Source: Kineothrix sp. MB12-C1
Lineage (GTDB): Bacteria > Bacillota > Clostridia > Lachnospirales > Lachnospiraceae
DNA length: 64,000 nucleotides
NCBI RefSeq assembly: GCF_030863805.1
Contig: NZ_CP132957.1
Span: 372,001-436,000, forward strand
Direction: 5' to 3'
Each line of letters opens with the position of its first letter. Within the stretch, counting starts at the first letter, position 1. This document shows, in pieces, positions 9,612-38,048 of the stretch. Below the pieces are notes generated by a model. That model was not told where the DNA came from. It saw nothing but the letters and a program-made list of their open reading frames with translations, and did not search any database. The position numbers and the translations under genes were made by a program.

Positions 9612-10436
9612 TTATCTCCATGTAATCGGATAATCTAAATATTGAGGCAGCTTGGTCTTTCGATTACCTTTCGCCGAATTTATTTGTCCTTGTGACAAAT
9701 AAACTGCATCTCTTAAATCCGCATTGCTGAAATCTGCGTCACGCGTATCCGCCCCTAAAAAAATCGTTCCATCAAACACACAATTATTAAAATTTGCGGC
9801 AATTAATAACTTTGTGCTTAAGTCCAATCCTCTCATATCTTTATTCTTAAAGTTTCTTCCCAGAAAATCGGACGGACATTTCTTATTTTCACAGCCCAAG
9901 CTCTTTTGCAGCAAATTACAAACCTGCTTTAAAAGAACATTTACTCTACTTCTGTAACCTTCTACATCGAATATTATAATATCTTGGGGCTTGGAACTAC
10001 ATATCAGTTCATTTTCTTCCAACAGGGCTTCGATATCATTTTTCAATACCTGTGCCGGAAAAATCACTATAGACTCTAATAGAAAGTAACGTATTTGATA
10101 TAGTTGAAAAACCACTATAAATACATCGAATATTTCTTTTGCCTGCTCCGGTACACTCTGCCACGTTTGCCCGGAATAAATGGATTGTGTTACTTGCTGC
10201 CCTGCGCCAAAGCAATCATATCCAATGCATCCTTTCATGTTTCTTTTTTCAAGTTCTCCATGGATCTTGCATCGGAAATCCTTTTGAAGATTCATACAAG
10301 GCTTCCCTGCTGCTTTATTTTCCGGAAATCCATCCATTTCAGAGAAAAACAATGCTGTACAACACAATCCACTACATTTTGAACAATCCGATTTCAACGA
10401 TTGTAATAACATCGTATTTTCATTATGTATTTTCAT
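9612..10436 (-). CDS. Pentapeptide-repeat protein with N-terminal Cys cluster
   Basis: Function unknown. The N-terminal part has CSKCSGLCCTALFF, a cysteine cluster like the zinc/iron-sulfur binding YkgJ family. A further CMNL, CKIH and GCIGYDC follow within 70 residues. The C-terminal ~70 residues hold pentapeptide repeats of the A(D/N)LxX type (DLSTKLLIAANFNNCVFDG, then DADFSNADLRDA). I place the start at the ATG at 10436 because AGGAG lies ten bases before it; an in-frame ATG at 10493 has none. No clear operon partner. Confidence 0.7.
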   Translation of the reverse strand: MKIHNENTMLLQSLKSDCSKCSGLCCTALFFSEMDGFPENKAAGKPCMNLQKDFRCKIHGELEKRNMKGCIGYDCFGAGQQVTQSIYSGQTWQSVPEQAKEIFDVFIVVFQLYQIRYFLLESIVIFPAQVLKNDIEALLEENELICSSKPQDIIIFDVEGYRSRVNVLLKQVCNLLQKSLGCENKKCPSDFLGRNFKNKDMRGLDLSTKLLIAANFNNCVFDGTIFLGADTRDADFSNADLRDAVYLSQGQINSAKGNRKTKLPQYLDYPITWR

Positions 10437-10672
10437 CCTATATCTGCTCCTATCATTTGCCGTTAAATTTCTACTTAATGTACTGGATTTCACTTACTGC
10501 ATATCGGTCCATTGCAATAGTGCAACCTGTAGGTTGTGTATAGACCTCCGTAAATTCCTGACTATAAACTTTAATATCATAATATCATATTAAGTCAAAA
10601 AATAAACTGAATTTTTCAATAGTAATGTTAGTATATTGTGTGTCAAAAATTTGAAAATCATCGTAGTAGAAA

Positions 10673-10710
10673 AAATCACCAGAAACCTTCTAAAAGATTT
10701 CTGGCGATTT
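10673..10710 (-). terminator. Terminator after the PTS EIIA remnant
   Basis: Stem AAATCACCAGAAA (10673-10685) pairs with TTTCTGGCGATTT (10698-10710) with one G-U pair; the minus strand continues in a T-rich stretch. It lies about ten bases after the EIIA stop. Confidence 0.7.
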
Positions 10711-10720
10711 CAAACACGCT

Positions 10721-11221
10721 CTAATGCACGATGGTAATTATTTTCTCCTTCGGGGATATTTTGCCGCTTACTACTTCCGGTAATACAGATAGGTAGTCGT
10801 TTGTATTTGTTACAACTATCATTACCGTTGAATCGTAGCCGGCTTCTTGAATTGCTTTGTTATCAAATTTTACCAACAAATCCCCAGGTGCTACTTTCTG
10901 ATCCACCTTGCAAATCGCATCAAAATATTGCCCTTCCAACTTAACGGTGTTCACGCCGATATGAATTAAGATCTCTACTCCATGCTCATCTATTATCCCA
11001 ATTGCGTGTCCGGTATGAAATACCGTTGTGATGATACCCGACACAGGCGAAACAATTTCTCCTTTCATCGGTACGATTGCAATACCTTCCCCCAGTAGTT
11101 TCTCTGCAAATGTTTGATCGGAAACGGTACTTAATTCTTGTACGGTACCTTCTACCGGACTATAGATAGCACTGGGAACGTCCCTTCTTGGCAAAACTGT
11201 ATCCGTTTTATCCTCATTCAT
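10721..11221 (-). CDS. PTS EIIA domain (glucose/beta-glucoside type), likely 3' remnant of an EIIBCA gene
   Basis: A 166-residue EIIA-Glc-fold protein that carries phosphate from HPr to a PTS permease. Conserved parts are SPVEGTV near the start, MKGEIVSPV and the phosphorylated His in ILIHIGVNTV. The frame continues open upstream of the ATG and reads VLCFIGYKDDT, which resembles the end of an EIIC domain (GFKDD) followed by a linker. I conclude this is the 3' end of a fused sugar permease gene whose front was lost (inference). It may still be translated: its ATG overlaps the stop of the truncated permease as ATGA. Confidence 0.8.
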   Translation of the reverse strand: MNEDKTDTVLPRRDVPSAIYSPVEGTVQELSTVSDQTFAEKLLGEGIAIVPMKGEIVSPVSGIITTVFHTGHAIGIIDEHGVEILIHIGVNTVKLEGQYFDAICKVDQKVAPGDLLVKFDNKAIQEAGYDSTVMIVVTNTNDYLSVLPEVVSGKISPKEKIITIVH

Positions 11222-12156: not shown

Positions 12157-13098
12157 TCACTTTAATGCATCTACAATGGTATCAATATTGGCTTTGACAG
12201 TCAGGATGTAAGTATCGGCTCCGGAATCTGCATCCCCTAAGGAATCGGAGAAAAGTTCTCCACCGATAGCGACATCGAAACCTTTTGCTTTGACCGCCGC
12301 CTGCAACGCTTCGATAGTCTTAGGCGGTACGGAGGATTCCACAAAGATAGCTTTGATTTGCCGTTCCACAATAAAATTCGCCAGATTACTTACGTCGGCT
12401 GTTCCCGCTTCTGCATCGGTACTGATACCCTGAAGGCCCCGCACTTCAAAGCCATATGCCTTACCGAAATACTGGAATGCATCGTGTGCCGTAACCAGTA
12501 CACGCTGTTCTTCCGATAGTTCTGCCACCCGGTTACGGATGTATGTATCCGTTTCATCCAGTTCTTTCAAGTAAGTTTCCAGATTCGCTTCATAGTCCGA
12601 TTTTCCTTCCGGGTCTGCTTCGGATAATCCGTCCGTCACGGTCTGTGCCGCTTCTTTCCACAGGGAGACATCAAACCAAATGTGTGGATCGTAGGCGGAA
12701 CTATCGTCTTCCGAGGCCAGAAGCTTGGATTCGTCTAAGCCTTCTTCAATACAAATGACAGTCGATCCCTGACCGGATAGGTTTTCAAATATTTCACCCA
12801 TTTTACCTTCCAGATGCAGGCCATTGTACACAACTACATCCGCCTTCTGCATTAGGGAAACATCTCCCGCACTGGCCTGATAGAGGAGAGGATCAATACC
12901 AGGACCCATCAAGCCATCCACCGTAACCCGTTCGCCGCCGATTGCCGTGGATAAATCAGCTAGCATAGTAGTGGTTGCTACAACATTTACCTTCTCTTCT
13001 TTCGTGGAATCCATATTAGCTACCGGCGCCGTACAGCCCACAAGCAGTAAAGATAAACTCAGGAATGTACAAAATAATGTTTTGATTTTATGATTCAT
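12157..13098 (-). CDS. Mn/Zn ABC transporter substrate-binding lipoprotein with a lost metal ligand
   Basis: A cluster A-I metal-binding protein (TroA/PsaA/MntA family). The signal peptide ends in a lipobox LVGC with lipid-carrying Cys22. Family metal ligands are expected as His in DPHLY, His in DPHIW, Glu in GISTEAEAG-like sequence and a late Asp. Here DPHIWFD (His139), the GISTDAEAG region and the GGELFSDSLG Asp are present, but the first motif reads GPGIDPLLYQ: Leu71 (CTC) replaces His (CAC), a single-base difference. The start is ATG 13098, with AGGAGG nine bases upstream. The gene fits a decaying operon. Confidence 0.9.
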   Translation of the reverse strand: MNHKIKTLFCTFLSLSLLLVGCTAPVANMDSTKEEKVNVVATTTMLADLSTAIGGERVTVDGLMGPGIDPLLYQASAGDVSLMQKADVVVYNGLHLEGKMGEIFENLSGQGSTVICIEEGLDESKLLASEDDSSAYDPHIWFDVSLWKEAAQTVTDGLSEADPEGKSDYEANLETYLKELDETDTYIRNRVAELSEEQRVLVTAHDAFQYFGKAYGFEVRGLQGISTDAEAGTADVSNLANFIVERQIKAIFVESSVPPKTIEALQAAVKAKGFDVAIGGELFSDSLGDADSGADTYILTVKANIDTIVDALK

Positions 13099-13127
13099 AA
13101 GTAACCTCCTAAATAATGTATTTGGTG

Positions 13128-13415
13128 TTATAACCCCTCCGTCTGGTCCACATAGATTTGACAAGCGGCTTTATAACTGATTTGAACACGCTTGCCATCC
13201 AGGTCAAGCGTAAGCGGCCCTTCATATTCCCCAACTTCAATAATGCGAACAGCGTTTCCAATTGCAACCTCGATCTCCTGCGGATAATTCAGAAACTGAT
13301 CCAGCCGCGCCGTCAGCCGCCGAGGCGTAATATGCTCTAAAAGCTCCGCGTCTTCATGAGCTTCACTCCATGAATATCCAAGATGACGCATAAGGATAAT
13401 CTTCTCCATTTGCAA
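13128..13415 (-). CDS. DtxR-type dimerization/FeoA-domain protein without a DNA-binding domain
   Basis: The first ~45 residues match the metal-binding and dimerization domain of DtxR/MntR regulators (LMRHLGYSWSEAHEDAELLEHI, then LDQFLNYP). The rest looks like the SH3/FeoA domain (VRIIEVGEYEGPLTLDLDGKRV). The N-terminal winged helix is absent, and the DNA just upstream is a promoter, so it was not lost by a recent frameshift next to the gene. It leads the metal-uptake operon, 29 bases before the binding-protein gene. It may act as a metal sensor or partner of the divergent MntR-like protein (inference). The start is uncertain: TTG 13415, ATG 13409 or ATG 13391. Confidence 0.65.
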   Translation of the reverse strand: MQMEKIILMRHLGYSWSEAHEDAELLEHITPRRLTARLDQFLNYPQEIEVAIGNAVRIIEVGEYEGPLTLDLDGKRVQISYKAACQIYVDQTEGL

Positions 13416-13430
13416 TTTTAAAATATATCT

Positions 13431-13446
13431 TTTAGGTATGCCTAAA
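13431..13446. promoter_or_regulatory. DtxR/MntR-type operator
   Basis: An inverted repeat TTTAGG-TATG-CCTAAA, the form of operator known for DtxR/MntR/TroR regulators. It lies just downstream of the predicted transcription start of the metal-uptake operon. A matching half site (TGCCTAAAC) is at 13462-13470, inside the promoter spacer. Confidence 0.75.
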
Positions 13447-13455
13447 TATGTTTAT

Positions 13456-13484
13456 ATTATATGCCTAAACATCAGAAATTGCAA
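13456..13484 (-). promoter_or_regulatory. Promoter of the metal-uptake operon
   Basis: On the minus strand, -35 TTGCAA (13479-13484), a 17-base spacer and a perfect -10 TATAAT (13456-13461). Its overlap with CCTAAA half sites supports repression by the divergent MntR-like protein. Confidence 0.75.
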
Positions 13485-13622
13485 CCAACTTTTAAAAATG
13501 ATTAAACATGATGCTCGTTCGTTAAGCGCGGGAAACACCGTTTACCATGACTAATTTATGAGTTCACGTCATAAAGTGTTACATATGCATAGTATAAAAA
13601 ATGAAATAGAGGACGAACATTT

Positions 13623-14114
13623 ATGAACAAGCCTACAGAGAATGAATTCCATACCATTCGTGGATATCAACTAAAACAGCAAAATGAGAGCGGGCTTACG
13701 CCTGCTCTGGAAGATTATCTCGAAATGACATACCGGTTATGTGTGGAAGAAAAATATACGCGTATTAACAAACTTTCCAAAAGTCTGCATGTCAGTCCGC
13801 CCGCTGCATCAAAGATGGTTTCCAAGCTTGTGGAATTTGGGTTTTTAGAATATGACAGCCTTGAATGTATCCGGCTGACTAAAGAAGGAAAATGTGCTGG
13901 TGCATATCTGCTGGAACGCCATTATATCATGGAGAGTTTTTTTTCTTTGCTTGGAAGTGAAACTCCCCTAAAGGAAACAGAATTGGTCGAGCATATGCTA
14001 TGTCGGTCTACCGTGCTTAAAATTCAGGCACTAGTGGATTTTTTTAACCAGAATACAGATCTTCATCAGCAGTTTCATTCATTCATTGATTCCTATAATT
14101 TCTCCAAAATCTAA
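13623..14114 (+). CDS. MntR/DtxR-family metal-dependent repressor, short form
   Basis: A 163-residue regulator. Residues ~25-95 are a winged helix-turn-helix (LEDYLEMTYRLC, then RINKLSKSLHVSPPAASKMVSKL), followed by LTKEGKCAGAYLLERH, where DtxR family members enter the dimerization domain. The C-terminal half is poorly conserved: expected metal-site residues such as the HEAEKLEH motif are replaced by ELVEHMLCRS, and no FeoA domain is present. It is divergent from the metal operon with the operator in between. A GAGG ribosome-binding motif is ten bases upstream. Known family role: repression of Mn or Fe uptake when metal is plentiful. Confidence 0.8.
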   Translation: MNKPTENEFHTIRGYQLKQQNESGLTPALEDYLEMTYRLCVEEKYTRINKLSKSLHVSPPAASKMVSKLVEFGFLEYDSLECIRLTKEGKCAGAYLLERHYIMESFFSLLGSETPLKETELVEHMLCRSTVLKIQALVDFFNQNTDLHQQFHSFIDSYNFSKI

Positions 14115-14237: not shown

Positions 14238-14314
14238 ACTCACTTAATTTCATTCAGTTTACACTCTTCTCACGCCATACTGTACATCGAGTCTTTCTCA
14301 TGAGCTAAGCTTTA

Positions 14315-24274: not shown

Positions 24275-26621
<2,347 letters not shown>

Positions 26622-26665: not shown

Positions 26666-27547
26666 TCAAAAAATATTTAGTTTTACTGCTAATTCATATT
26701 CTGCCTTGACATCCACATAAGCTCGATGCAAACCTTCTGTACTTATATCGTATTTCTTTAAAACAGTACTTAGCTTATAATCCCGTAGCAGTTTCTGTTT
26801 CCTTTTCGCCTCTTGTAAAAGACATATCGTTTTATTCGTCAATACCGCATTACCACTCTTTTTTAATTCGGCATTAAGAAAACTGATATCAAATTTCACA
26901 TTATATCCTACTAGAATTGACCCTCCCACAAAGTCCAAGAATTCATCAAGCACGACAGCTATATTCTTACCGTCATTAGCAAGCATTTCATCCGTAATTC
27001 CCGTTAATTCAGATATTTCTCTTTGAAGTCCTTTCTCAACTTTTACCAACTCCTGAAAAACAATCATCTCATTGCCTTCCATTTTTACTGCAGCTATCTC
27101 AATAATCTGATCCTTTTCTGCATTAATACCGGTTGTTTCTACATCAATAACTACATAATTCTCACTCTTATTTTCGCTTATAACTTTTCTGCGTTGTCTG
27201 GCCCTTTTTATTTTTTCAAATTTAGCCGCATTGCTGAATCCCAACTGCTGCAGTGGCGTAGCGCTTAACTCTTTTGGCAAAAAAACCAGAGGTATACCAT
27301 CGTAATAAATCACTTCTCTCTTTGTATTATGAACCATGAAATCATAACCTATTTCATTACGTTTAGCATAAGACATTGTTGCCTGTCCCTGTTTGATGTT
27401 ATCAATAATTCGTTTCCACAACTCTTCTCTGATTCGTGTATTTATGTTCCCTACATAAACACCTGTAGATATCTCTTGCATCCATTTCGTCAAATCTCCT
27501 CTTAACGAACTGGGTACATTTGTCAATGTAACAACCGTCATAGGCAT
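26666..27547 (-). CDS. cas2: Cas2e fused to a DnaQ-type 3'-5' exonuclease
   Basis: Residues 1-95 are a type I-E Cas2 (TVVTLTNVPSSLRGDLTKWM; GVYVGNINTRIREELW), the dimer at the centre of the Cas1-Cas2 integrase. Residues ~128-293 are a DEDDh exonuclease with all five catalytic residues: Asp135 and Glu137 (VIDVETTG), Asp220 (NVKFD), His274 and Asp279 (HRAYVD). Natural Cas2-DnaQ fusions are known in type I-E systems, where the exonuclease trims prespacers before integration. It is the last gene of the cas operon, next to the array. Confidence 0.96.
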   Translation of the reverse strand: MPMTVVTLTNVPSSLRGDLTKWMQEISTGVYVGNINTRIREELWKRIIDNIKQGQATMSYAKRNEIGYDFMVHNTKREVIYYDGIPLVFLPKELSATPLQQLGFSNAAKFEKIKRARQRRKVISENKSENYVVIDVETTGINAEKDQIIEIAAVKMEGNEMIVFQELVKVEKGLQREISELTGITDEMLANDGKNIAVVLDEFLDFVGGSILVGYNVKFDISFLNAELKKSGNAVLTNKTICLLQEAKRKQKLLRDYKLSTVLKKYDISTEGLHRAYVDVKAEYELAVKLNIF

Positions 27548-27562
27548 ATCCCCAGCCCCCTT

Positions 27563-28498
<936 letters not shown>

Positions 28499-28507
28499 CT
28501 ATCTTCC

Positions 28508-29140
28508 TCACTGTATTACGGTCATCATTCCAAAACCATATGCTTTCTCTTTTCCCACACCCTCAGTTAAGGTTTTTCTAAAAATCTCAGCATTTTCAAT
28601 AATCAGACTTCCTTCATAAATTGCCCTGGCTAACTTAATACTTTTTCCGCCTTTTTTCCTCAATATCGGAAAGTCTCTTTGTACAATCTGATAGTCATAA
28701 TCCACCAAAGAAAAACCCAGTCTCTCTGCTCGTTTTTCCAGATATTCCAATTGCTTCTCAACTGTAGTGTGTGGACAAACCTTTCCTCTTTGAGCCTCTT
28801 GCTTAGCCGCTCTTGCAGGATTGGCCGTTAATCGAAATGACATTTTCTGACCATGTATCAGGCTTTGTAAAAATGCATCATAGGTTTTACATTGTCCGGT
28901 GCCAGGAACTCCATATGCTTCCAATTGTGTCATATCCGGCTCACCTTGGCTGACAATCAACAGATAGCTTCGTCCCTTCAGTTGATCTACTCGCCACAAT
29001 TTACGGCTTCTTTCCCCAGCAGCAAATTCTTCGGGAAAGCTTTTCTCAACCCAATTGTGATATGCGCCTAAATGGGTAAGTTCCGAAATCTTTCTTCGGT
29101 TTCCTGTATCAATTTCCACTCGCGAAATATAATACATCAT
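28508..29140 (-). CDS. cas6e: crRNA-processing endonuclease Cas6e (Cse3/CasE)
   Basis: A 210-residue Cas6e that cuts the precursor crRNA at the base of each repeat hairpin and stays bound to its 3' hairpin. It begins MYYISRVEID and has the catalytic His region in THLGAYHNWVEKSFP. It ends with the glycine-rich loop GVGKEKAYGFGMM characteristic of RAMP proteins. Its start overlaps the cas5e stop by four bases. Confidence 0.95.
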   Translation of the reverse strand: MMYYISRVEIDTGNRRKISELTHLGAYHNWVEKSFPEEFAAGERSRKLWRVDQLKGRSYLLIVSQGEPDMTQLEAYGVPGTGQCKTYDAFLQSLIHGQKMSFRLTANPARAAKQEAQRGKVCPHTTVEKQLEYLEKRAERLGFSLVDYDYQIVQRDFPILRKKGGKSIKLARAIYEGSLIIENAEIFRKTLTEGVGKEKAYGFGMMTVIQ

Positions 29141-29856
29141 ACGCCTCCTATTCCTTGAAAAGCATCATGTTCTGTGTCTTTGCCCATTTCTGCGGTTTGA
29201 ATTTCGACTTGCATGGATTTTACCGGCCTAAAACCATGGTTCCGATTCATCAAATCAAATGACTCTGCTCTATCCCGTTGAAACATAGGCGGTAAAGAAT
29301 CATCTAATAAACCGGCATCTACATAAGCATCTAACATAATCCTATTCAATTTACTTTCTCGTGAAAGCTTTTTCTGATACCACCCACTCGCCTGCCAATG
29401 ATACGATTTAATGGTAGATAATAAATCGTTTTCTACAACTCCCTGAAAAAATTCACTGTCCACCGGAACACTGCGCCGTCCCATATAAAGCGGAAAAACA
29501 GGCGAAACAAGTGCTTTTGCCACAGTATCGATCCAACTTGAATCTTCATGAGAAAGCATTGTCAGAAAGACAGCATCTTGCAGGTAATATCGATTTGTCA
29601 CATAAGTCTGATTTGCAGACCTTGCAATATGATAATCCTTTAACAAGGTGCCCCTTTGTTCAATGCGGACTCCGAAAGACAATTCATTGAGCTCTTGGAT
29701 TTTTTCAGTTTCATCCCGACGATACCCCAAGGCTCCGCCAATTAACCCGATGACTGCACTTTTTGTAGGATATCTTGCCGTATCCCTGGTTTCAAAATTA
29801 GAACCAGTTCCCCAAGATTGCAGCGGACCCGAAAATTTTAATATAATTGTTTTCAT
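29137..29856 (-). CDS. cas5e: Cascade subunit Cas5e (CasD)
   Basis: A 239-residue Cas5e that caps the 5' handle of the crRNA. It begins MKTIILKFSGPLQSWGTGSNFETRDT and has PTKSAVIGLIGGALG, both hallmark segments of the family. The ATG at 29856 is preferred because GAGG lies six bases upstream; a GTG at 29868 lies in the ribosome-binding region. Confidence 0.95.
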   Translation of the reverse strand: MKTIILKFSGPLQSWGTGSNFETRDTARYPTKSAVIGLIGGALGYRRDETEKIQELNELSFGVRIEQRGTLLKDYHIARSANQTYVTNRYYLQDAVFLTMLSHEDSSWIDTVAKALVSPVFPLYMGRRSVPVDSEFFQGVVENDLLSTIKSYHWQASGWYQKKLSRESKLNRIMLDAYVDAGLLDDSLPPMFQRDRAESFDLMNRNHGFRPVKSMQVEIQTAEMGKDTEHDAFQGIGGV

Positions 29857-29868
29857 CATGAACCTCAC

Positions 29869-30927
29869 CTATAGCAGTCTATCTATAGTTTCTCCAACCT
29901 TCTCCAAAAGCTCATTTAAATTCTTCTTGCCTTCTCCCAGTCCCTCTATATCACCCACGGTAAACGTCGCAATAGATTCCTCCGCAAAACGGTCAATTTT
30001 TTCAAATTCTGTTTTCAGCCTGGAAATAGACCCGGTTACATATCCGCCCTGGGATTTAACAGGATTTTCAAAGGCATTTACCAGATTCACCGGGCGGTCC
30101 GAGCGAATAGAAACGATTAATGCATCGGGAAGCGTCTGATTGGCAAATGTATTGATTTTTCCTGATGGTAAGGACTGCACAAATGATTTCACAAAAAGTT
30201 TTAACGCCTCGATCACCGCATCTTTATCGTCCCCCAATTGGACTCTCAGTTCATGCACCGCCACATTCGCATATCTATATAAGGTAGAAGAATTATATTC
30301 CACCGTTCCAAGCATACCCGCTCCCGCCTGATCATCGGGTGTCAAATCATCAACGGCCGTGAAAAAATCAAACTCTGCCGCAATTTCATGTGTCGATATA
30401 GCATGGGCAACTTGTGAGCTTGCATCTACGTTCAATTCCGGCGCATCTGCGACCATACGTCCGAACAAAGCAACATCAATACTTTGATTCGCATTTAAGA
30501 TACTCTTAATCTCTTTCGCCTGTAAATCGCCTAAGTGTTCCACTCCATAAGAAGCAAGCATTTGCCGTTGTTTGCCACCCAGGAAAAAAAGTGCTTTGGC
30601 TTCCTGATCTTTTGTAGATATTTTTGCTTTATTAAAAATCTCTTCCGCTAACTTAAGCGCACTGCTTTCATCCATTGACGGTTCTTTTTCTATAATAGCT
30701 TTTGCAAGTGAATGTACAATTTTCTTTGTTCTGATTCCCAGATTTTCTTTATCTTCATGCTCTTTGAAATATTCTCTCATAGCCTTTTTCCAGCTTTGAG
30801 AAGATACCCGGGCCCGTGTAACGCCTCCATACCTGGCAGTTTTGGGACTGCCTGTATCATCCCGGTTAATATTACTTGGCGGAACAGTCTGAAGCACATG
30901 TAAATCAACATAAATATTATTCTGCAT
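29869..30927 (-). CDS. cas7e: Cascade backbone subunit Cas7e (Cse4/CasC)
   Basis: A 352-residue Cas7e, six copies of which form the backbone along the spacer RNA. It begins IYVDLHVLQTVPPSNINRDDTGSPKTA and has GGVTRARVSSQSWKKAMRE, both typical. The middle DDQAGAGMLGTVEYNSSTLYRYANV also matches family members. It overlaps the cse2 gene by 11 bases; AAGGAG precedes the ATG. Confidence 0.96.
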   Translation of the reverse strand: MQNNIYVDLHVLQTVPPSNINRDDTGSPKTARYGGVTRARVSSQSWKKAMREYFKEHEDKENLGIRTKKIVHSLAKAIIEKEPSMDESSALKLAEEIFNKAKISTKDQEAKALFFLGGKQRQMLASYGVEHLGDLQAKEIKSILNANQSIDVALFGRMVADAPELNVDASSQVAHAISTHEIAAEFDFFTAVDDLTPDDQAGAGMLGTVEYNSSTLYRYANVAVHELRVQLGDDKDAVIEALKLFVKSFVQSLPSGKINTFANQTLPDALIVSIRSDRPVNLVNAFENPVKSQGGYVTGSISRLKTEFEKIDRFAEESIATFTVGDIEGLGEGKKNLNELLEKVGETIDRLL

Positions 30928-31498
30928 CTTTTTCTCCTTCTTTCTCTTTTACTTGGTAGAAATAATAATCTTGTCCCCAACACATACGCATGCGATTGGC
31001 AGATTCCGGCGAACTCTGATACCAATAGAAATCCTCTGCTAATTTAGCGTAATCGATTTTTGTATCTGCTTCTTGTTTGAGTATGCTGATGAGATGACGT
31101 AAATGTGTGGTCAGTTCTTTAAAATTACCGGAAGTAATCAGTGAATTAAATCGCCTGTCTAATGCTGTATTGTCCATATCCCTAATAGTATGCAAGGCTT
31201 TTCCGATACTATTTTTTGATGCTTTATGCACAGAGTCACTCCTTCCCTGCTGATGCAGTGCATACAGCTGCAAAGAGGTTACTATTGCATTTTCCTCATG
31301 GGTAGGTATTCCGTTTTTACTTAAGTATTCCACCGGTACTTCTTCAAATACTAACGGCCAAATTTCAACTGTTTCTGAAATATCCCGGCCTATAGAATTT
31401 CTTAGACGGGATAAGGCAGCCCTTGTCTCAGATAATTCCAGCCGTTCCCCCAGTTTACAAAGAATTCTTTCAGTTACTTTGTATAAGCCTTCACTCAT
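30917..31498 (-). CDS. cse2: Cascade small subunit Cse2 (CasB/Cas11e)
   Basis: A 193-residue helical protein with the family pattern RAALSRLRNSIGRDISETVEIWPLVFEEVP near residues 30-55, and late RLMSxL-like RHLISILKQEADTKIDYAKLAEDFYWY. Two copies per Cascade stabilise the R-loop. It overlaps cse1 by four bases and cas7e by 11. Confidence 0.93.
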   Translation of the reverse strand: MSEGLYKVTERILCKLGERLELSETRAALSRLRNSIGRDISETVEIWPLVFEEVPVEYLSKNGIPTHEENAIVTSLQLYALHQQGRSDSVHKASKNSIGKALHTIRDMDNTALDRRFNSLITSGNFKELTTHLRHLISILKQEADTKIDYAKLAEDFYWYQSSPESANRMRMCWGQDYYFYQVKEKEGEKDAE

Positions 31499-33150
31499 TC
31501 TCTCACCCCCAATTCTCTTTTTAAATTTGTTCTGAACCGAATATAAGCCGTTTCTATATTTTCCAGTTTGCTCTTGTTTTTATCTGTATAATAACCAAGA
31601 TAATCTCTGTTTCCTGCTTCCTGTATTAATTCGCCTCCCTGTTTAGCAATTTCTTCTCGCAGTATGGTCTTCCATTCCCGCGTGCGCTCTTTTTTCTCAT
31701 CCTGCGGTGAAATACTGATTATCCACTCACGAAAGCGGCGGTCGATGGAAAAGAATATCTGTGTTTTTGTTTTTTGTTCCGCAGCACCATTTTGTAGATT
31801 CCGTATTTTATCAATATCTCTGGCAAAACGAATCACAGTGCTTCCAATGACTCTCTCAGTATTCTTTATCTCCTCTGCAATACAGGTCAGCCAGCCATTT
31901 TCCTGCTTGTCCAATAACCCAATGTTCTCATTAATTTGATCGTATATCTGTCTGTCTACCACACCATCTTTTTGAATATAGTTTTCCGCCACTGCATTGA
32001 GTGATATCAGACCTGTTACAAGCTTATCTCCCTGCAGACTTCTAAGCCACTGAATAATACCCGGATTATAGTTCTTTTCTTCAATGGAAGAAAAGGTCTG
32101 CATCTCCTGCCAGAAATACTTATCCGGGTCATGGCGTTTCGGTACAAATCCCTCTTTTACTTTCCATTTTCCGACATCCAGCTTGGTATCATACCTCCAG
32201 AAGGTAAACGGTTCTATTATTAAATTTGGCTCATACTCAAAATTGCTGACAGCCAGATCCAGCCTGTATTCAATAATCTTATGATTCTCATCTGCCTTTA
32301 AAAGCAGCTGCCTGCTGGGATAAGTGAAGAGCTGGGCCAGATTATCCGGTATCGCCTGAAAATGGTTGATTTGGGGTTCTGCTTCCCATATTGGCTTTTG
32401 TACACAAGCACTCTGTGGAAGATTTAGATTCAGTAACAGGGTTTCAAAAAGATTCTTTCCACTGGCATAAATGCCACCCAGCTTTCCTAAATAGGCTACT
32501 CCTGTAGATTCTCTCTTTTTCTTCTTGCCTGGATTTCCCGACTTTGAAGGTGCATAACCGTTGGTATATAACAGCCATCTGGCCGCCACCGAATACTCTA
32601 ACTCGGTTTGATACTGGCTCATAAAAAGTCTGGGTTTTCTCGGGTCCCCCTCTAGAATCTTACCATTTAATTTGTTGATGCCATTATCCGTTGCGCTATA
32701 GGGATAGTCCGGTTCTCCAATTTCCGTAAACTGAAAAAAAGGATATGTTTCATCCAGTAAATTAAAACGGTAACGGTATTTTTCCAGATATTCATTCACA
32801 ATATCTGGAAACTCCCCTTTTTTCCAAAGAGTTTTCCAAGTCGCATATAAATCTTCTTTATATTCTGAGATATCGTCTTCATCAATTTTTTTCCTGACCT
32901 GAAATGTGTCCGTATCCACATCCACCCATTCATAGCCCTCACCCGTTGCCGTAAATCTGGTGAAGACCGTATGTAACACGGCTAACAGCAGCCGTAAAAC
33001 TGCAAAATCCTGTGTGGGTGTTTCCCCGGCAAGCCGCTTATACCTATGAGCATTTTCGAACAATTCCTTTAATGATACTTCTTCTGTTTCTCCTTTCTCA
33101 CCGGTCATAACCATTAACCATTTTTCATCCAATAAATTAAATCGGCTCAT
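31495..33150 (-). CDS. cse1: Cascade large subunit Cse1 (CasA/Cas8e)
   Basis: A 551-residue Cas8e, the subunit that recognises the PAM and recruits Cas3. It begins FNLLDEKWLMVM and contains YRFNLLDETYPFFQF, LNGKILEGDPRKPRLF, and AARWLLYTNGYAPSKSGNPG, all seen in Cse1 proteins. A four-helix C-terminal region ends in RFRTNLKRELGV. It overlaps both cas3 and cse2 by four bases, indicating tight coupling. Confidence 0.95.
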   Translation of the reverse strand: MSRFNLLDEKWLMVMTGEKGETEEVSLKELFENAHRYKRLAGETPTQDFAVLRLLLAVLHTVFTRFTATGEGYEWVDVDTDTFQVRKKIDEDDISEYKEDLYATWKTLWKKGEFPDIVNEYLEKYRYRFNLLDETYPFFQFTEIGEPDYPYSATDNGINKLNGKILEGDPRKPRLFMSQYQTELEYSVAARWLLYTNGYAPSKSGNPGKKKKRESTGVAYLGKLGGIYASGKNLFETLLLNLNLPQSACVQKPIWEAEPQINHFQAIPDNLAQLFTYPSRQLLLKADENHKIIEYRLDLAVSNFEYEPNLIIEPFTFWRYDTKLDVGKWKVKEGFVPKRHDPDKYFWQEMQTFSSIEEKNYNPGIIQWLRSLQGDKLVTGLISLNAVAENYIQKDGVVDRQIYDQINENIGLLDKQENGWLTCIAEEIKNTERVIGSTVIRFARDIDKIRNLQNGAAEQKTKTQIFFSIDRRFREWIISISPQDEKKERTREWKTILREEIAKQGGELIQEAGNRDYLGYYTDKNKSKLENIETAYIRFRTNLKRELGVRE

Positions 33151-35891
33151 TCTTCCTCCTTTCCAACCATCAATCCATATTGTTTATCATAATGAAGCTT
33201 ATATCCTATCAGCTCAGCACTATTATCTTCATCCAGAATGATGCCCAGACTTCCTTTTAACCACGGCTCATCTTGCCAATAAGAAAGTTCGGCATGATTA
33301 CGTGTCTCTAATTCTTTAATTATGTCATCCGTTTTATAGCAGAAAATATGGGGAAGCCGAATGGTCTGCTGGGATATTTTCTTTGCAAGAGCAGGTGTTA
33401 GCTCGCCGCCGATGTTAGTAATATCATCCAGTAGATACAATTCGTCTTCTTTTCTCTTAATCAGTATGACTTCCATGGAATCAGAACCATCCCGAACTTT
33501 AGCCAGCCCCGCCTCTTCCGTATCACTTTGTATGTCGTCCTTTAACCAGCCAATCAGGCTGCCTCTCTCCGGATAATAAGGCTCTGCAAGACGAAAGACA
33601 TCTGCATTTTTTTCCTTTTTCTTTCTTTCTGACCCATCTTTTTCTTTCATTTCCTTATATTTTTCTCTTATTGATACGGGGATATCTAATTCTTCCTTTG
33701 GATTTTCCTTATATACTTTCTGAACCAGTCTGGATATATCCTCAGGAAGCACCAGCTTTTCCGGAAGAACTAATTGTGTGCGAGTCAGCAAATAATCTCC
33801 GTATATCGTCCTAGTCCCCTCCTCAAATTCCGCCATTCCCTGTATGCCCATCACATACACAACAGGAGCCTTCAGGTTTTCCGGTCTTATCGTTTCCGCA
33901 TGCCTGTGCAGCCGTCCGATTCGCTGAAGCAGCAAATCTATGGGGGCAATATCTGTAAAAATCGCGTCAAAATCAATATCTATCGATTGCTCTAAAACTT
34001 GTGTTCCTATAACAATTCTCAGTTTGGGGCGTTTGGCATTTTTCCCGATTTCATTTAGCAACTGCTTTTCTTTTTCCCGTCTGTGGGGAGCCAGAAAGCC
34101 GGAGTGCAGCACGCTGATATTTTCTCGTCCAAATATGTGCTCTAATTTCTCGGCAAATTCTTGCGCCCGTTTCACCGTATTTACAATAATCCCCACAATT
34201 CCTCCGTTTGAAAGCGTTCTTTGAAGGATTGTTACTAAATCATCCTCTTCCATCAATTCTACTTTTACTTCTTTTGTGTCTCCCAACGGAAAATCCCGCA
34301 GCTGGCTGACCCTGTCACCGTCTGTGTATGTAATCAATGGATAGGCTTCTGTTTCTTTCCAGTCGCTATATTCTGCCTTTATATTCCGCTTCTTCATCCC
34401 CATACCCCGGCAATAAGTTTCGACTAATCTTGTCCGTCTCGATGCCGGCAGCGTCGCAGACAGGATGATTATCGGTACCCGGTATGCACCGAGCCACTCA
34501 ACAACCCGGTATAGAAATTCTCCCATATAAGCATCGTATGCATGTATTTCATCAATCACGATGACCTTTTTGGATAATCCCAAATGTCTAAGCGCCAGAT
34601 GTTTCTGCTTTAATCCCGCCAGTAAAAACTGATCCACAGTTCCCACAACGAAATCATCTAATATGGCAGTTTTTCTTCCCGTAAACCATTCATTGATAAC
34701 AACACTGCCCTCATCTGCATAAATATTCTCTGCATTTTTCAAGTTCTGGAATGTCTCGTTAAACTGTGCTTTCCCATGCACGAGCTGAATCGACTTGTTA
34801 TCACCCGTTTCATTGGCAATTTTTTCAATCCATTCTTCAATCCTTTGGAAAATACTATCAGAGGTCGCCTGTGTCGGTAAGCCAAAAAACATGCCGGAGC
34901 ACTTTCCTTTCTCCGCCAATTGTTCAACCCCCAATAATGCGGCTTCTGTTTTTCCAATACCCATAGGCGCTTCCAGTATAATAATTCCCGGGGTTTGCGC
35001 TTTATCAATGGATTCAGAAAATGCCCGCTGTATTTCTCTTGGATGAAACTGAAATCTTTTGCTGTATTGCTCCTCAACACTACCATCGCACTCAGCAATC
35101 CATGGATATGTCTTGGTCCAACGCTCCCATCCATATTCTAAACGTTCTTCTTGAAACTCTTCTTCCTCCTTATCTATCGGAAACAAAGGAAAATACTCCT
35201 CATTACTGGCAATCCAGTCAGCCATAATAAGAAGACCTTGTAGAAGAACCTGTGCAGGCTGCTCAATCTTCGGAAGCGCATCAACATTCTTATATCCAGA
35301 CTCCTCCAGTGCCCACTCAAACAATTTACGCTGCATCTTCTTCCAGTTCTCAGTGCATTCACCGCCATGGTCGTATTGATAGTAGTTCGCAGTGTAAGCC
35401 TCCAGCTGTACCCCGATCTCCCATTTATCATTTACCGTCCTTCCATGATGTCCGCCGATAATCGATGCAATATCTTCGCCAACACCATAAGAATCCAGTA
35501 AGACCTGACTTGCCAGGGCATGGGGGGATTTTGATGATAATTCTGTGCTCCAATTTTCCAGTCCGGTAAATCCTGATCTTATCAGGTTTTCTGTCAGTAT
35601 TTTATCCAGATCTGCTGATTGATTGTTCCCTGACGGCCTCAACGCAAAACAGGGAGTGCTTTTGGCCAAATCATGCGTTAAGCCTATAAAGGATACAAGG
35701 TTTACTCCAGCATTCTCTTCTGAATCAGAAATAGACTCCAGAATAAATTCCCTTTGTCCCTCGCTAAGCCAATGATTCCATATTTGAATAAGGACATTCG
35801 ATGTATCCAGTAAATGCTGCTCAAGCGGGAGCCAATAGTATTGTCCGTCTTTTTCTTTTTTCTTACCCCATAGATTAGTTTTTATACGCAT
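33147..35891 (-). CDS. cas3: Cas3 nuclease-helicase, type I-E
   Basis: A 914-residue Cas3 that nicks and degrades DNA bound by Cascade. The HD nuclease domain has His26, His73-Asp74 (LTHDLAKSTP) and GGHHGR. The helicase part has Walker A PMGIGKTEAAL, DEIH (VIDEIHAYD), SATLP, GTQVLEQSIDIDFD and QRIGRLHRH. The start is ATG 35891, with GGAGG seven bases upstream. It is the first gene of an eight-gene operon and is preceded by the mini-CRISPR and cas promoter, a likely point of control. Confidence 0.96.
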   Translation of the reverse strand: MRIKTNLWGKKKEKDGQYYWLPLEQHLLDTSNVLIQIWNHWLSEGQREFILESISDSEENAGVNLVSFIGLTHDLAKSTPCFALRPSGNNQSADLDKILTENLIRSGFTGLENWSTELSSKSPHALASQVLLDSYGVGEDIASIIGGHHGRTVNDKWEIGVQLEAYTANYYQYDHGGECTENWKKMQRKLFEWALEESGYKNVDALPKIEQPAQVLLQGLLIMADWIASNEEYFPLFPIDKEEEEFQEERLEYGWERWTKTYPWIAECDGSVEEQYSKRFQFHPREIQRAFSESIDKAQTPGIIILEAPMGIGKTEAALLGVEQLAEKGKCSGMFFGLPTQATSDSIFQRIEEWIEKIANETGDNKSIQLVHGKAQFNETFQNLKNAENIYADEGSVVINEWFTGRKTAILDDFVVGTVDQFLLAGLKQKHLALRHLGLSKKVIVIDEIHAYDAYMGEFLYRVVEWLGAYRVPIIILSATLPASRRTRLVETYCRGMGMKKRNIKAEYSDWKETEAYPLITYTDGDRVSQLRDFPLGDTKEVKVELMEEDDLVTILQRTLSNGGIVGIIVNTVKRAQEFAEKLEHIFGRENISVLHSGFLAPHRREKEKQLLNEIGKNAKRPKLRIVIGTQVLEQSIDIDFDAIFTDIAPIDLLLQRIGRLHRHAETIRPENLKAPVVYVMGIQGMAEFEEGTRTIYGDYLLTRTQLVLPEKLVLPEDISRLVQKVYKENPKEELDIPVSIREKYKEMKEKDGSERKKKEKNADVFRLAEPYYPERGSLIGWLKDDIQSDTEEAGLAKVRDGSDSMEVILIKRKEDELYLLDDITNIGGELTPALAKKISQQTIRLPHIFCYKTDDIIKELETRNHAELSYWQDEPWLKGSLGIILDEDNSAELIGYKLHYDKQYGLMVGKEEE

Positions 35892-35971
35892 TGATTTTCC
35901 TCCAAAGTAATTAAGTTGGGTTTTGGACTTTGTCAGGAAGCAGTTAAAAGTCAAAAAAATCATGGGGATTA

Positions 35972-36061
35972 TTCACACCCCCGCATATGCGGGGAACACT
36001 TTATTTGCTCCTAGTAAGATTATCTTTACATATGGAACACTCCTGCTAATGCAGGAAACAC
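35972..36061 (-). CRISPR. Two-repeat mini-CRISPR upstream of cas3 (CreR-like candidate)
   Basis: Two divergent copies of the array repeat (36034-36061 and 35972-35999) flank one 34-base spacer (36000-36033), in the same orientation as the main array and the cas operon. Each repeat keeps a hairpin: CCTGC-ATTA-GCAGG in the first and CCCCGC-ATAT-GCGGGG in the second. The first has paired changes relative to CCCGC/GCGGG, which suggests selection for Cas6e cleavage. Spacer bases 2-18, next to the 5' handle, equal 36152-36168 in the predicted cas promoter. Likely product: a crRNA-like RNA that guides Cascade to repress cas transcription (inference). Confidence 0.85.
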
Positions 36062-36151
36062 TTTATCATATTATCATAAACCATTTTCTTTTGCTTCCAG
36101 ACAAAAACTTTCTATTTCCCACATCATTTTTTTCTTTATAATTAAAATTTA

Positions 36152-36168
36152 AAGATTATCTTTACATA
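36152..36168 (-). promoter_or_regulatory. Proposed target site of the mini-CRISPR RNA
   Basis: On the minus strand this reads TATGTAAAGATAATCTT, identical to spacer bases 2-18 of the mini-CRISPR. The bases just 5' of the protospacer are AAA, like the AA-type PAMs known for Gram-positive type I-E systems. It covers the expected transcription start (+1 to about +17) of the cas promoter. The mini-CRISPR itself cannot be attacked from this match because its copy is flanked by repeat. Confidence 0.75.
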
Positions 36169-36173
36169 ATTTT

Positions 36174-36202
36174 ATTCTAATATGTTTTCAATTTAAATGC
36201 AA
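36174..36202 (-). promoter_or_regulatory. Predicted cas operon promoter
   Basis: Minus strand: -10 TAGAAT (36174-36179), 17-base spacer, weak -35 TTGCAT (36197-36202). Transcription would start near 36167 and give a ~275-base leader containing the mini-CRISPR. An overlapping alternative uses TTGAAA as -35. A second promoter nearer the mini-CRISPR (TATGAT around 36070) is possible. Confidence 0.5.
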
Positions 36203-37524: not shown

Positions 37525-37720
37525 TCATAACAACTCCATACCATTAATCTCGTCCTGTATTTCATCCCTTACCTGTTCAAGGATTATAAGTATTTTAGGC
37601 TGTATCATATTCATAATTTTCTTTGAGTCTTTCAAAGCCATATGCATATTTTCCTCATATGTTTGCAGATGCCAGATCATTTTGTGCCAGCCTAAGCCAT
37701 TGACTGATATAATTGTGCGT
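37525..37720 (-). pseudogene. Possible HEPN-domain remnant downstream of the nucleotidyltransferase
   Basis: Overlapping the end of the nucleotidyltransferase gene, one frame reads QWLRLAQNDLASAN, the usual start of a HEPN partner protein, and then hits a stop. Another frame continues YEENMHMALKDSKK to 37525. This looks like a frameshifted and shortened HEPN gene, the normal neighbour of MNT genes. Confidence 0.35.
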
Positions 37721-38048
37721 TTCGCTCATACAGCTTTACTCCCCTTTCATATACCGTACGTTCTAATGTCATTGCATTACATTTTTCATGGAATCTTCTG
37801 GATTCCTCCGCAAGAATATCTACTGAGCGGATATCCATTCTGGCAATAGCCATATTCATTTTTTGAATCGCCCTTAAAGGACGTTCCGTTCCATCGGTCA
37901 ATACAACATAAAGGTCAAAATCACTATCTTGGGTAGGTGCTCCATATGCAAACGATCCGAATAAAAAAATTTCCTCAGCTTCCACGACATCGGCAATTGC
38001 ATGTACAATCTGATCCAATTCTCTTTTATCCATTTCCTCCATCGACAT
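37692..38048 (-). CDS. MNT-type minimal nucleotidyltransferase (antitoxin-like)
   Basis: A 118-residue protein of the polymerase-beta nucleotidyltransferase superfamily. It has the signature IFLFGSFAYGAPTQDSDFDLYVV with GSxxxG and DxD, then MDIRSVDIL, where the third acidic residue sits. In MNT-HEPN toxin-antitoxin pairs this protein modifies and silences the HEPN RNase. The partner gene is broken here, so it may be an orphan antitoxin (inference). Start ATG 38048 has GGGAGAAG upstream. Confidence 0.82.
   Translation of the reverse strand: MSMEEMDKRELDQIVHAIADVVEAEEIFLFGSFAYGAPTQDSDFDLYVVLTDGTERPLRAIQKMNMAIARMDIRSVDILAEESRRFHEKCNAMTLERTVYERGVKLYERNAQLYQSMA

Follow-up and report, generated by a model that had tools for sequence, protein, structure and literature searches.

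A mini-CRISPR in the cas leader of Kineothrix sp. MB12-C1 matches the candidate cas promoter region and suggests type I-E autorepression

The DNA analyzed here, called the window, is a stretch of 64,000 nucleotides (contig NZ_CP132957.1, positions 372,001 to 436,000) from the 3.94-Mb, one-contig genome of Kineothrix sp. MB12-C1. According to NCBIfam, its minus strand carries a complete type I-E gene set in the order cas3-cas8e-cas11-cas7e-cas5e-cas6e-cas1-cas2, followed by the CRISPR array (Table 1). Cas3 shows 92% identity between the window and Kineothrix alysoides, and Cas2e is joined to a DnaQ-like 3'-5' exonuclease domain (positions 26666-27547; NCBIfam). Judged from the sequence, the most likely start of cas3 is at 35891, and a start at 35963 was discarded owing to the strong ribosome-binding site GGAGG; the mini-CRISPR described below therefore lies wholly inside the leader, 81-170 bases upstream of the gene, and cas3 is the first long ORF past the target. 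Upstream of the cas leader, the window also shows an ORF with a nucleotidyltransferase domain (37692-38048; Pfam Polbeta/NTP_transf_2), which is perhaps one half of a toxin-antitoxin pair.

Table 1. Features of the type I-E locus and its leader, in window positions
Feature	Positions	Strand	Basis and remarks
Main CRISPR array	24275..26621	-	38 repeats at ≥20/28 (26621-24336) and a worn terminal repeat (24302-24275), the terminal one found by eye
cas1e and cas2e	26666..28498	-	NCBIfam
Type I-E Cascade genes casA/cas8e, casB/cas11, cas7e, cas5e, cas6e	28508..33150	-	NCBIfam, over cut-off
cas3	33147..35891	-	NCBIfam cas3_core and cas3_HD, over cut-off; start moved to 35891
cas3 ribosome-binding site GGAGG	35899..35903	-	Sequence; kept in K. 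alysoides
Degenerate repeat 2	35972..35999	-	21/28 vs array repeat; predicted hairpin CCCCGC-ATAT-GCGGGG
Single spacer	36000..36033	-	36033 = A in the PAM-derived place; 36032-36000 = 33-base guide
Degenerate repeat 1	36034..36061	-	21/28 vs array repeat; predicted hairpin CCTGC-ATTA-GCAGG, handle next
Target, protospacer positions 1-17	36152..36168	-	Exact 17-base spacer match, at the predicted cas transcription start
PAM AAT	36169..36171	-	Sequence; AAY inferred from 37/37 T/C first bases and AAT/AAC in eight loci
Candidate cas promoter	36169..36202	-	TTGCAT-17-TAGAAT (36202-36174) or TTTAAA-17-TAAAAT (36197-36169); both from consensus scans, a weak criterion in AT-rich DNA

A preliminary description of this DNA had claimed that two degenerate repeats flank a single spacer upstream of cas3, and comparison of both with the array repeat bears this out. 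The window locus is a mini-CRISPR with degenerate repeats adjoining cas genes, as CreR regulators are. The hairpins expected of the repeats form in predicted folds of both repeats and in both Kineothrix species, the leader folds better than its shuffled versions (z -3.13), and a weak terminator-like hairpin at 35982-35964 overlaps the end of repeat 2. Hairpins of the Cas6e type, the terminator-like stem and the favorable folding would also suit control at the RNA level, in which Cas6e binds or cuts the leader, or repeat 2 acts as a terminator switch, and no DNA target is involved. We regard such control as unlikely, since the terminator-like stem has CTCT in K. alysoides in place of its CCCC arm, and since the guide has the sense of the cas mRNA: it cannot pair with the mRNA start, and pairing at the target is possible only with the template DNA. 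RNA-level control also leaves unexplained the PAM and the co-variation reported below. The reading preferred here, repression of the cas promoter by guided Cascade, involves a DNA target.

The 3.94-Mb genome holds two exact copies of the 17-base sequence TATGTAAAGATAATCTT, one within the spacer (36032-36016) and one at 36168-36152; the latter is the second copy previously claimed, and no third exact copy was found genome-wide. The match had been placed at spacer bases 2-18. It holds over 17 bases, but its numbering had to be changed: in type I-E arrays the first base after the repeat derives from the PAM, and all 37 units of the main array have a pyrimidine directly after the 28-base repeat (T in 28, C in 9). 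The PAM should therefore end in Y, and the guide is numbered from 36032, so that the match covers protospacer positions 1-17, with a mismatch at position 18. Likewise, the AAA reported before the protospacer is present at 36172-36170, but it is one base off and the PAM is AAT (36171-36169). An AAY PAM is used by the related system of Streptococcus thermophilus. Searches of the main-array spacers against phages gave three weak, uninformative matches, so that the PAM assignment relies on the base next to the array repeats and on the PAMs of the eight loci described below.

The predicted promoter TTGCAT-17-TAGAAT was recovered at 36202-36174, although both this promoter and the start site are conjectures from consensus motifs, and promoter-like sites were no commoner in the scan than in shuffled sequences (three against a mean of 4.0). 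Between 36168 and 35900 the standard scan found no promoter-like site on the minus strand, and a looser scan added one weak site, TTTAAA-16-AAAAAT, just downstream of the target. This further site and a minimal frame, ATG ATA ATA TGA, between target and guide in the window raise the alternative of a CreTA-like addiction module, in which the target promoter would mainly drive a small toxic RNA (36167 to 36062), the guide would silence it, and cas3 would be driven otherwise. The order of promoter, short stretch and guide equals that of creTA in H. hubeiense which, in the accessible part of its report, adjoins cas upstream and has a promoter repressed by its own CreA (PMC8501985). However, the frame is missing in K. 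alysoides, and the standard scan offered no site in the leader from which cas could be driven separately. Furthermore, in 15 window genes ATA is as common as ATC (17.3 per 1000 each); as ATA is not rare, trapping of a rare tRNA is unlikely. On balance, an addiction module of this kind seems very unlikely, and we retain the reading in which the target promoter drives cas3 itself.

The match was compared with what chance yields in this leader. With up to two mismatches allowed, the 17-mer again found just two sites in the window, against a chance mean of 0.04. When the spacer was compared with the leader requiring an AA PAM, 15 of 15 readable positions agreed, while 2000 dinucleotide shuffles of the leader reached at most 13/15 under the same PAM requirement (two shuffles), with 12/15 in 19 more. 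Among the 37 canonical spacers compared with the same leader, one reached 12/15 with an AA PAM (AAG) and none scored higher with an AA PAM, and one scored 13/15 with the PAM AGA; about 0.4 canonical spacers at 12/15 or better with an AA PAM are expected from the shuffle rate, against the one observed. Lesser leader matches do therefore arise by chance. The array spacer concerned (26409-26392) matches the leader at 36159-36142, partly overlapping the mini-CRISPR target, at about the chance level.

A Cas3 search of the genome contigs gave K. alysoides as the sole match. Its leader can be aligned to the window, start of cas3 included, with 83% identity over 541 columns, and it retains the mini-CRISPR and the target at the same places, with AAT still the PAM. 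The readable positions 2, 5, 9 and 15 differ between the two species, and at all four (4/4) the spacer and the target carry the same change. Comparison of the leader in related genomes had been proposed as a check, and its outcome is that, between these two Kineothrix species, changes in the spacer are accompanied by changes in the promoter target. K. alysoides is the one close relative in which this feature was seen. Within positions 1-18, the mismatches of K. alysoides are at 6 and 12 only; position 18 is paired in K. alysoides and unpaired in the window, where positions 6 and 12 match too. The E. coli I-E complex flips out every sixth position, although 45% of the bound off-target sites nonetheless matched at position 6, according to the portion of that report available (PMC5904413). 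Changes of CreA at positions 6 or 12 are tolerated, as far as the accessible text describes (PMC8501985). Just past the array of K. alysoides there is also a lone degenerate repeat (L061, about 14287-14314, plus strand; 21/28), probably the worn end of that array.

We then consider a wider set of type I-E loci, drawn from genomes of the family (397), the genus (16), the class (391), the genus of G111 (11), the family of G440 (130) and the phylum (398). The scan covered 89 loci with their flanks, some of them truncated at contig ends and perhaps a few outside type I-E. It left out L045, L046 and L061 (overlaps), L010, short first loci and the G260 fragments, as well as G839, G927, G1032, G1048, G1054 and G1278, which fell under the family cut-off, and G1027, one of 61 listed regions. 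Candidates had to combine a hairpin and an end resembling the handle with exact pairing over positions 1-5 and 7-11 within 800 bases, and the listing was limited to those with one or two target places. Ten candidate rows showed an AA PAM: seven mini-CRISPRs and three in-array artefacts, the rows of L069, L085 and L115, which were dropped as direct copies or a palindrome inside arrays. Rows with other PAMs were mostly array copies and palindromes. Mini-CRISPRs were found by the scan in seven of the 89 loci (K. alysoides, G111, G084, G440, G910, G888 and G871), most relatives being without one, and the PAM is AAT or AAC in all seven; with the window, this makes eight mini-CRISPRs. Across these eight loci, position 6 is paired in three and position 12 in two, positions 13 and 14, which had not been selected for, in all eight (8/8 each), position 15 in six, positions 16 and 17 in four each and position 18 in two.

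Among 1153 isolated candidates, shuffled regions gave 0.48 matches per run against 17 real rows from 11 candidates, namely six mini-CRISPRs and five array repeats misread as spacers; the latter (L050, L063, L106, L110 and L127; 11 of the 17 rows) were dropped. The seventh mini-CRISPR of a relative, L093 (G888), had been classed with arrays and lies outside the isolated set. As a control, 230 candidates with any target at 1-5 and 7-11 were examined, of which eight have a repeat of at least 17/28 against the generic I-E repeat and no array neighbor: five are AAY mini-CRISPRs, two (L109 and L113) match array repeats, and one is L083, a lone repeat whose single 1-5/7-11 target has the PAM GCT and which was not counted, as an example of chance. 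The repeats of G084 and G910 are below the 17/28 threshold of this control. For 27 other lone or terminal repeats, no target was found at the near-miss threshold, and G799, the sole further I-E locus among the 11 genomes of the genus of G111, showed no mini-CRISPR.

The comparison of related genomes thereby extends beyond Kineothrix: pairing is lost at positions left unread by Cascade, and the same geometry, again with an AAY PAM, recurs in six more type I-E loci, in four of which the target is at or close to a predicted cas promoter. Selection on the pairing is indicated by the four matched changes, by the AAY PAM in eight loci and by the freedom of positions 6 and 12. These observations, and the retention of both hairpins, argue against a relic, whether of an ectopic spacer or of a local duplication, that has no function today. 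The degeneracy of the repeats would suit a relic, and so would the window match, which runs unbroken through positions 6 and 12 like a fresh copy; the spacer of the window may have originated as a recent, local copy of the promoter. We consider a functionless relic most improbable, and a guide kept for pairing with the promoter would account for these observations.

The CreR-like mini-CRISPRs L065 (G440), L090 (G910), L093 (G888) and L096 (G871) belong to one other Clostridia family. By eye, their guide lies upstream of the cas3 promoter and their target is the cas3 promoter region, with a terminator-like hairpin after the guide in G910, G888 and G871. In G888 the predicted -10 is covered by the target; in G910 the target is immediately downstream of the predicted start, and in G871 immediately upstream of the predicted -35; in G440 it is over the -35 of the second-best predicted promoter and upstream of the best one. 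Among the six loci with a target at or near the predicted cas promoter, the two Kineothrix loci alone have a guide in the cas leader, downstream of its target; in the other four it is upstream.

Two further guides, found by the same signature, are aimed at genes other than cas (Abi_2 and LPD3-like) and could point to CRISPR-guarded toxins. In L044 (G111; 13054-13850) the guide has an AAT PAM and mismatches within positions 1-18 only at 6, 12 and 18, and its target is at the predicted promoter of a 174-residue gene before cas3, with a sub-threshold match to LPD3 and no match in PADLOC. In L054 (G084) the mini-CRISPR lies at about 9910-10065, between cas3 and cas8e, with an AAC PAM and a mismatch at position 6, otherwise paired to position 15. 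Its target is located between the mini-CRISPR and a divergent Abi_2 gene (10148-11047, plus strand; E 1e-19), upstream of the predicted promoter of that gene. From this arrangement, the G084 locus is possibly a Cascade-guarded abortive-infection toxin in a type I-E system, and the guide could also act on the promoter of the mini-CRISPR itself.

Taken together, we conclude with a probability of about 0.85 that the cas leader of the window contains a CreR-type, crRNA-like guide, with which Cascade would repress the cas promoter. Anatomy, PAM, match, co-variation and recurrence are read directly from the sequences, whereas transcription start, processing, binding, repression and lack of cleavage are what we infer from them. 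RNA polymerase would start near 36167 and read through the mini-CRISPR into cas3 and the remaining genes of the operon. Cas6e would cut both degenerate repeats and release a guide of about 62 bases, with ends at about 36040-35979 if, as we assume, the E. coli cut site applies, and the cas mRNA left after cutting would retain its ribosome site. Guide-loaded Cascade would read AAT and the 17 bases at the target, pair with the template strand and block the promoter; bound there, it would lie against or over the -10 region and the start site. As the match ends at position 17, Cas3 would not be recruited. In E. coli I-E, more than 18 bp are required for interference and priming and 5 bp can suffice for binding, according to the available part of the source (PMC5904413), and a match of 17 bp with a mismatch at position 18 fits binding without cutting.

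More Cascade and Cas6e would then give less cas transcription, and other crRNAs would compete with the guide for Cascade. The locus might even work as a single-transcript controller, a tentative proposal to which we give somewhat less than even odds, in which the guide lies in the cas mRNA leader, its supply is set by cas transcription together with cleavage by Cas6e, and the operon senses working Cas6e and free Cascade simultaneously. If the proposed circuit operates, it would be a type I-E autorepression circuit in Lachnospiraceae whose compensatory evolution is visible between two species. The loci also provide a signature with which such guides can be searched for in other genomes: an AAY PAM, pairing at positions 1-5, 7-11 and 13-14, and free positions 6 and 12.

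Several known systems resemble this arrangement in part. Autorepression of Cas9 (type II-A) by tracr-L also places an effector on its own promoter by means of a short-matching guide, but effector and RNA are others and there is no mini-CRISPR. In CrePA, a crRNA-like RNA guides Cascade to repress a promoter and so silences a toxin protein, according to the accessible part of its report (PMC12737573); it differs in that the gene under its target promoter encodes the toxin, whereas the next gene in the window is cas3. CreTA of Haloarcula (type I-B) is closer: as described in the available text, the guide is flanked by two degenerate repeats, a PAM and a seed at positions 1-5 and 7-11 are found at the promoter, and in H. 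hubeiense the guide is transcribed from the promoter that it represses (PMC8501985). The window shares the guide between degenerate repeats, PAM and seed at the predicted promoter and, as predicted, the transcription of the guide from the promoter it would repress; positions 6 and 12, at which CreA tolerates changes, are unpaired in K. alysoides. However, in the part of that account available, a toxic RNA is transcribed from the Haloarcula promoter and transcription stops past creA, while a toxin of this kind does not appear to be conserved here; the window has a minimal ATA-ATA frame, missing in K. alysoides, and a weak terminator-like stem.

CreRs, in the accessible parts of the sources, are mini-CRISPRs or crRNA-like RNAs that act on cas promoters and are generally toxin-free (PMC13131331, PMC12737573, PMC12948488), and they repress cas genes of types I-B, I-E and V-A through partial promoter complementarity (PMC13131331). 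The window locus agrees with them in a mini-CRISPR partly complementary to the cas promoter region, with an adjoining PAM (AAT and 17 bases, at a promoter that is predicted only). Between target and guide no small frame is conserved in K. alysoides, although a toxic RNA may still be encoded there. The window locus differs in that the match is a contiguous stretch of 17 bases and the guide lies inside the leader it would repress. Within the literature searched, a partial set that did not cover the primary CreR paper, neither a Kineothrix case nor a leader-embedded guide was found. The window locus is most likely a further CreR-type case, CreR being already known for type I-E, and the predicted position of its guide inside the transcript it would repress is unusual among the loci examined.
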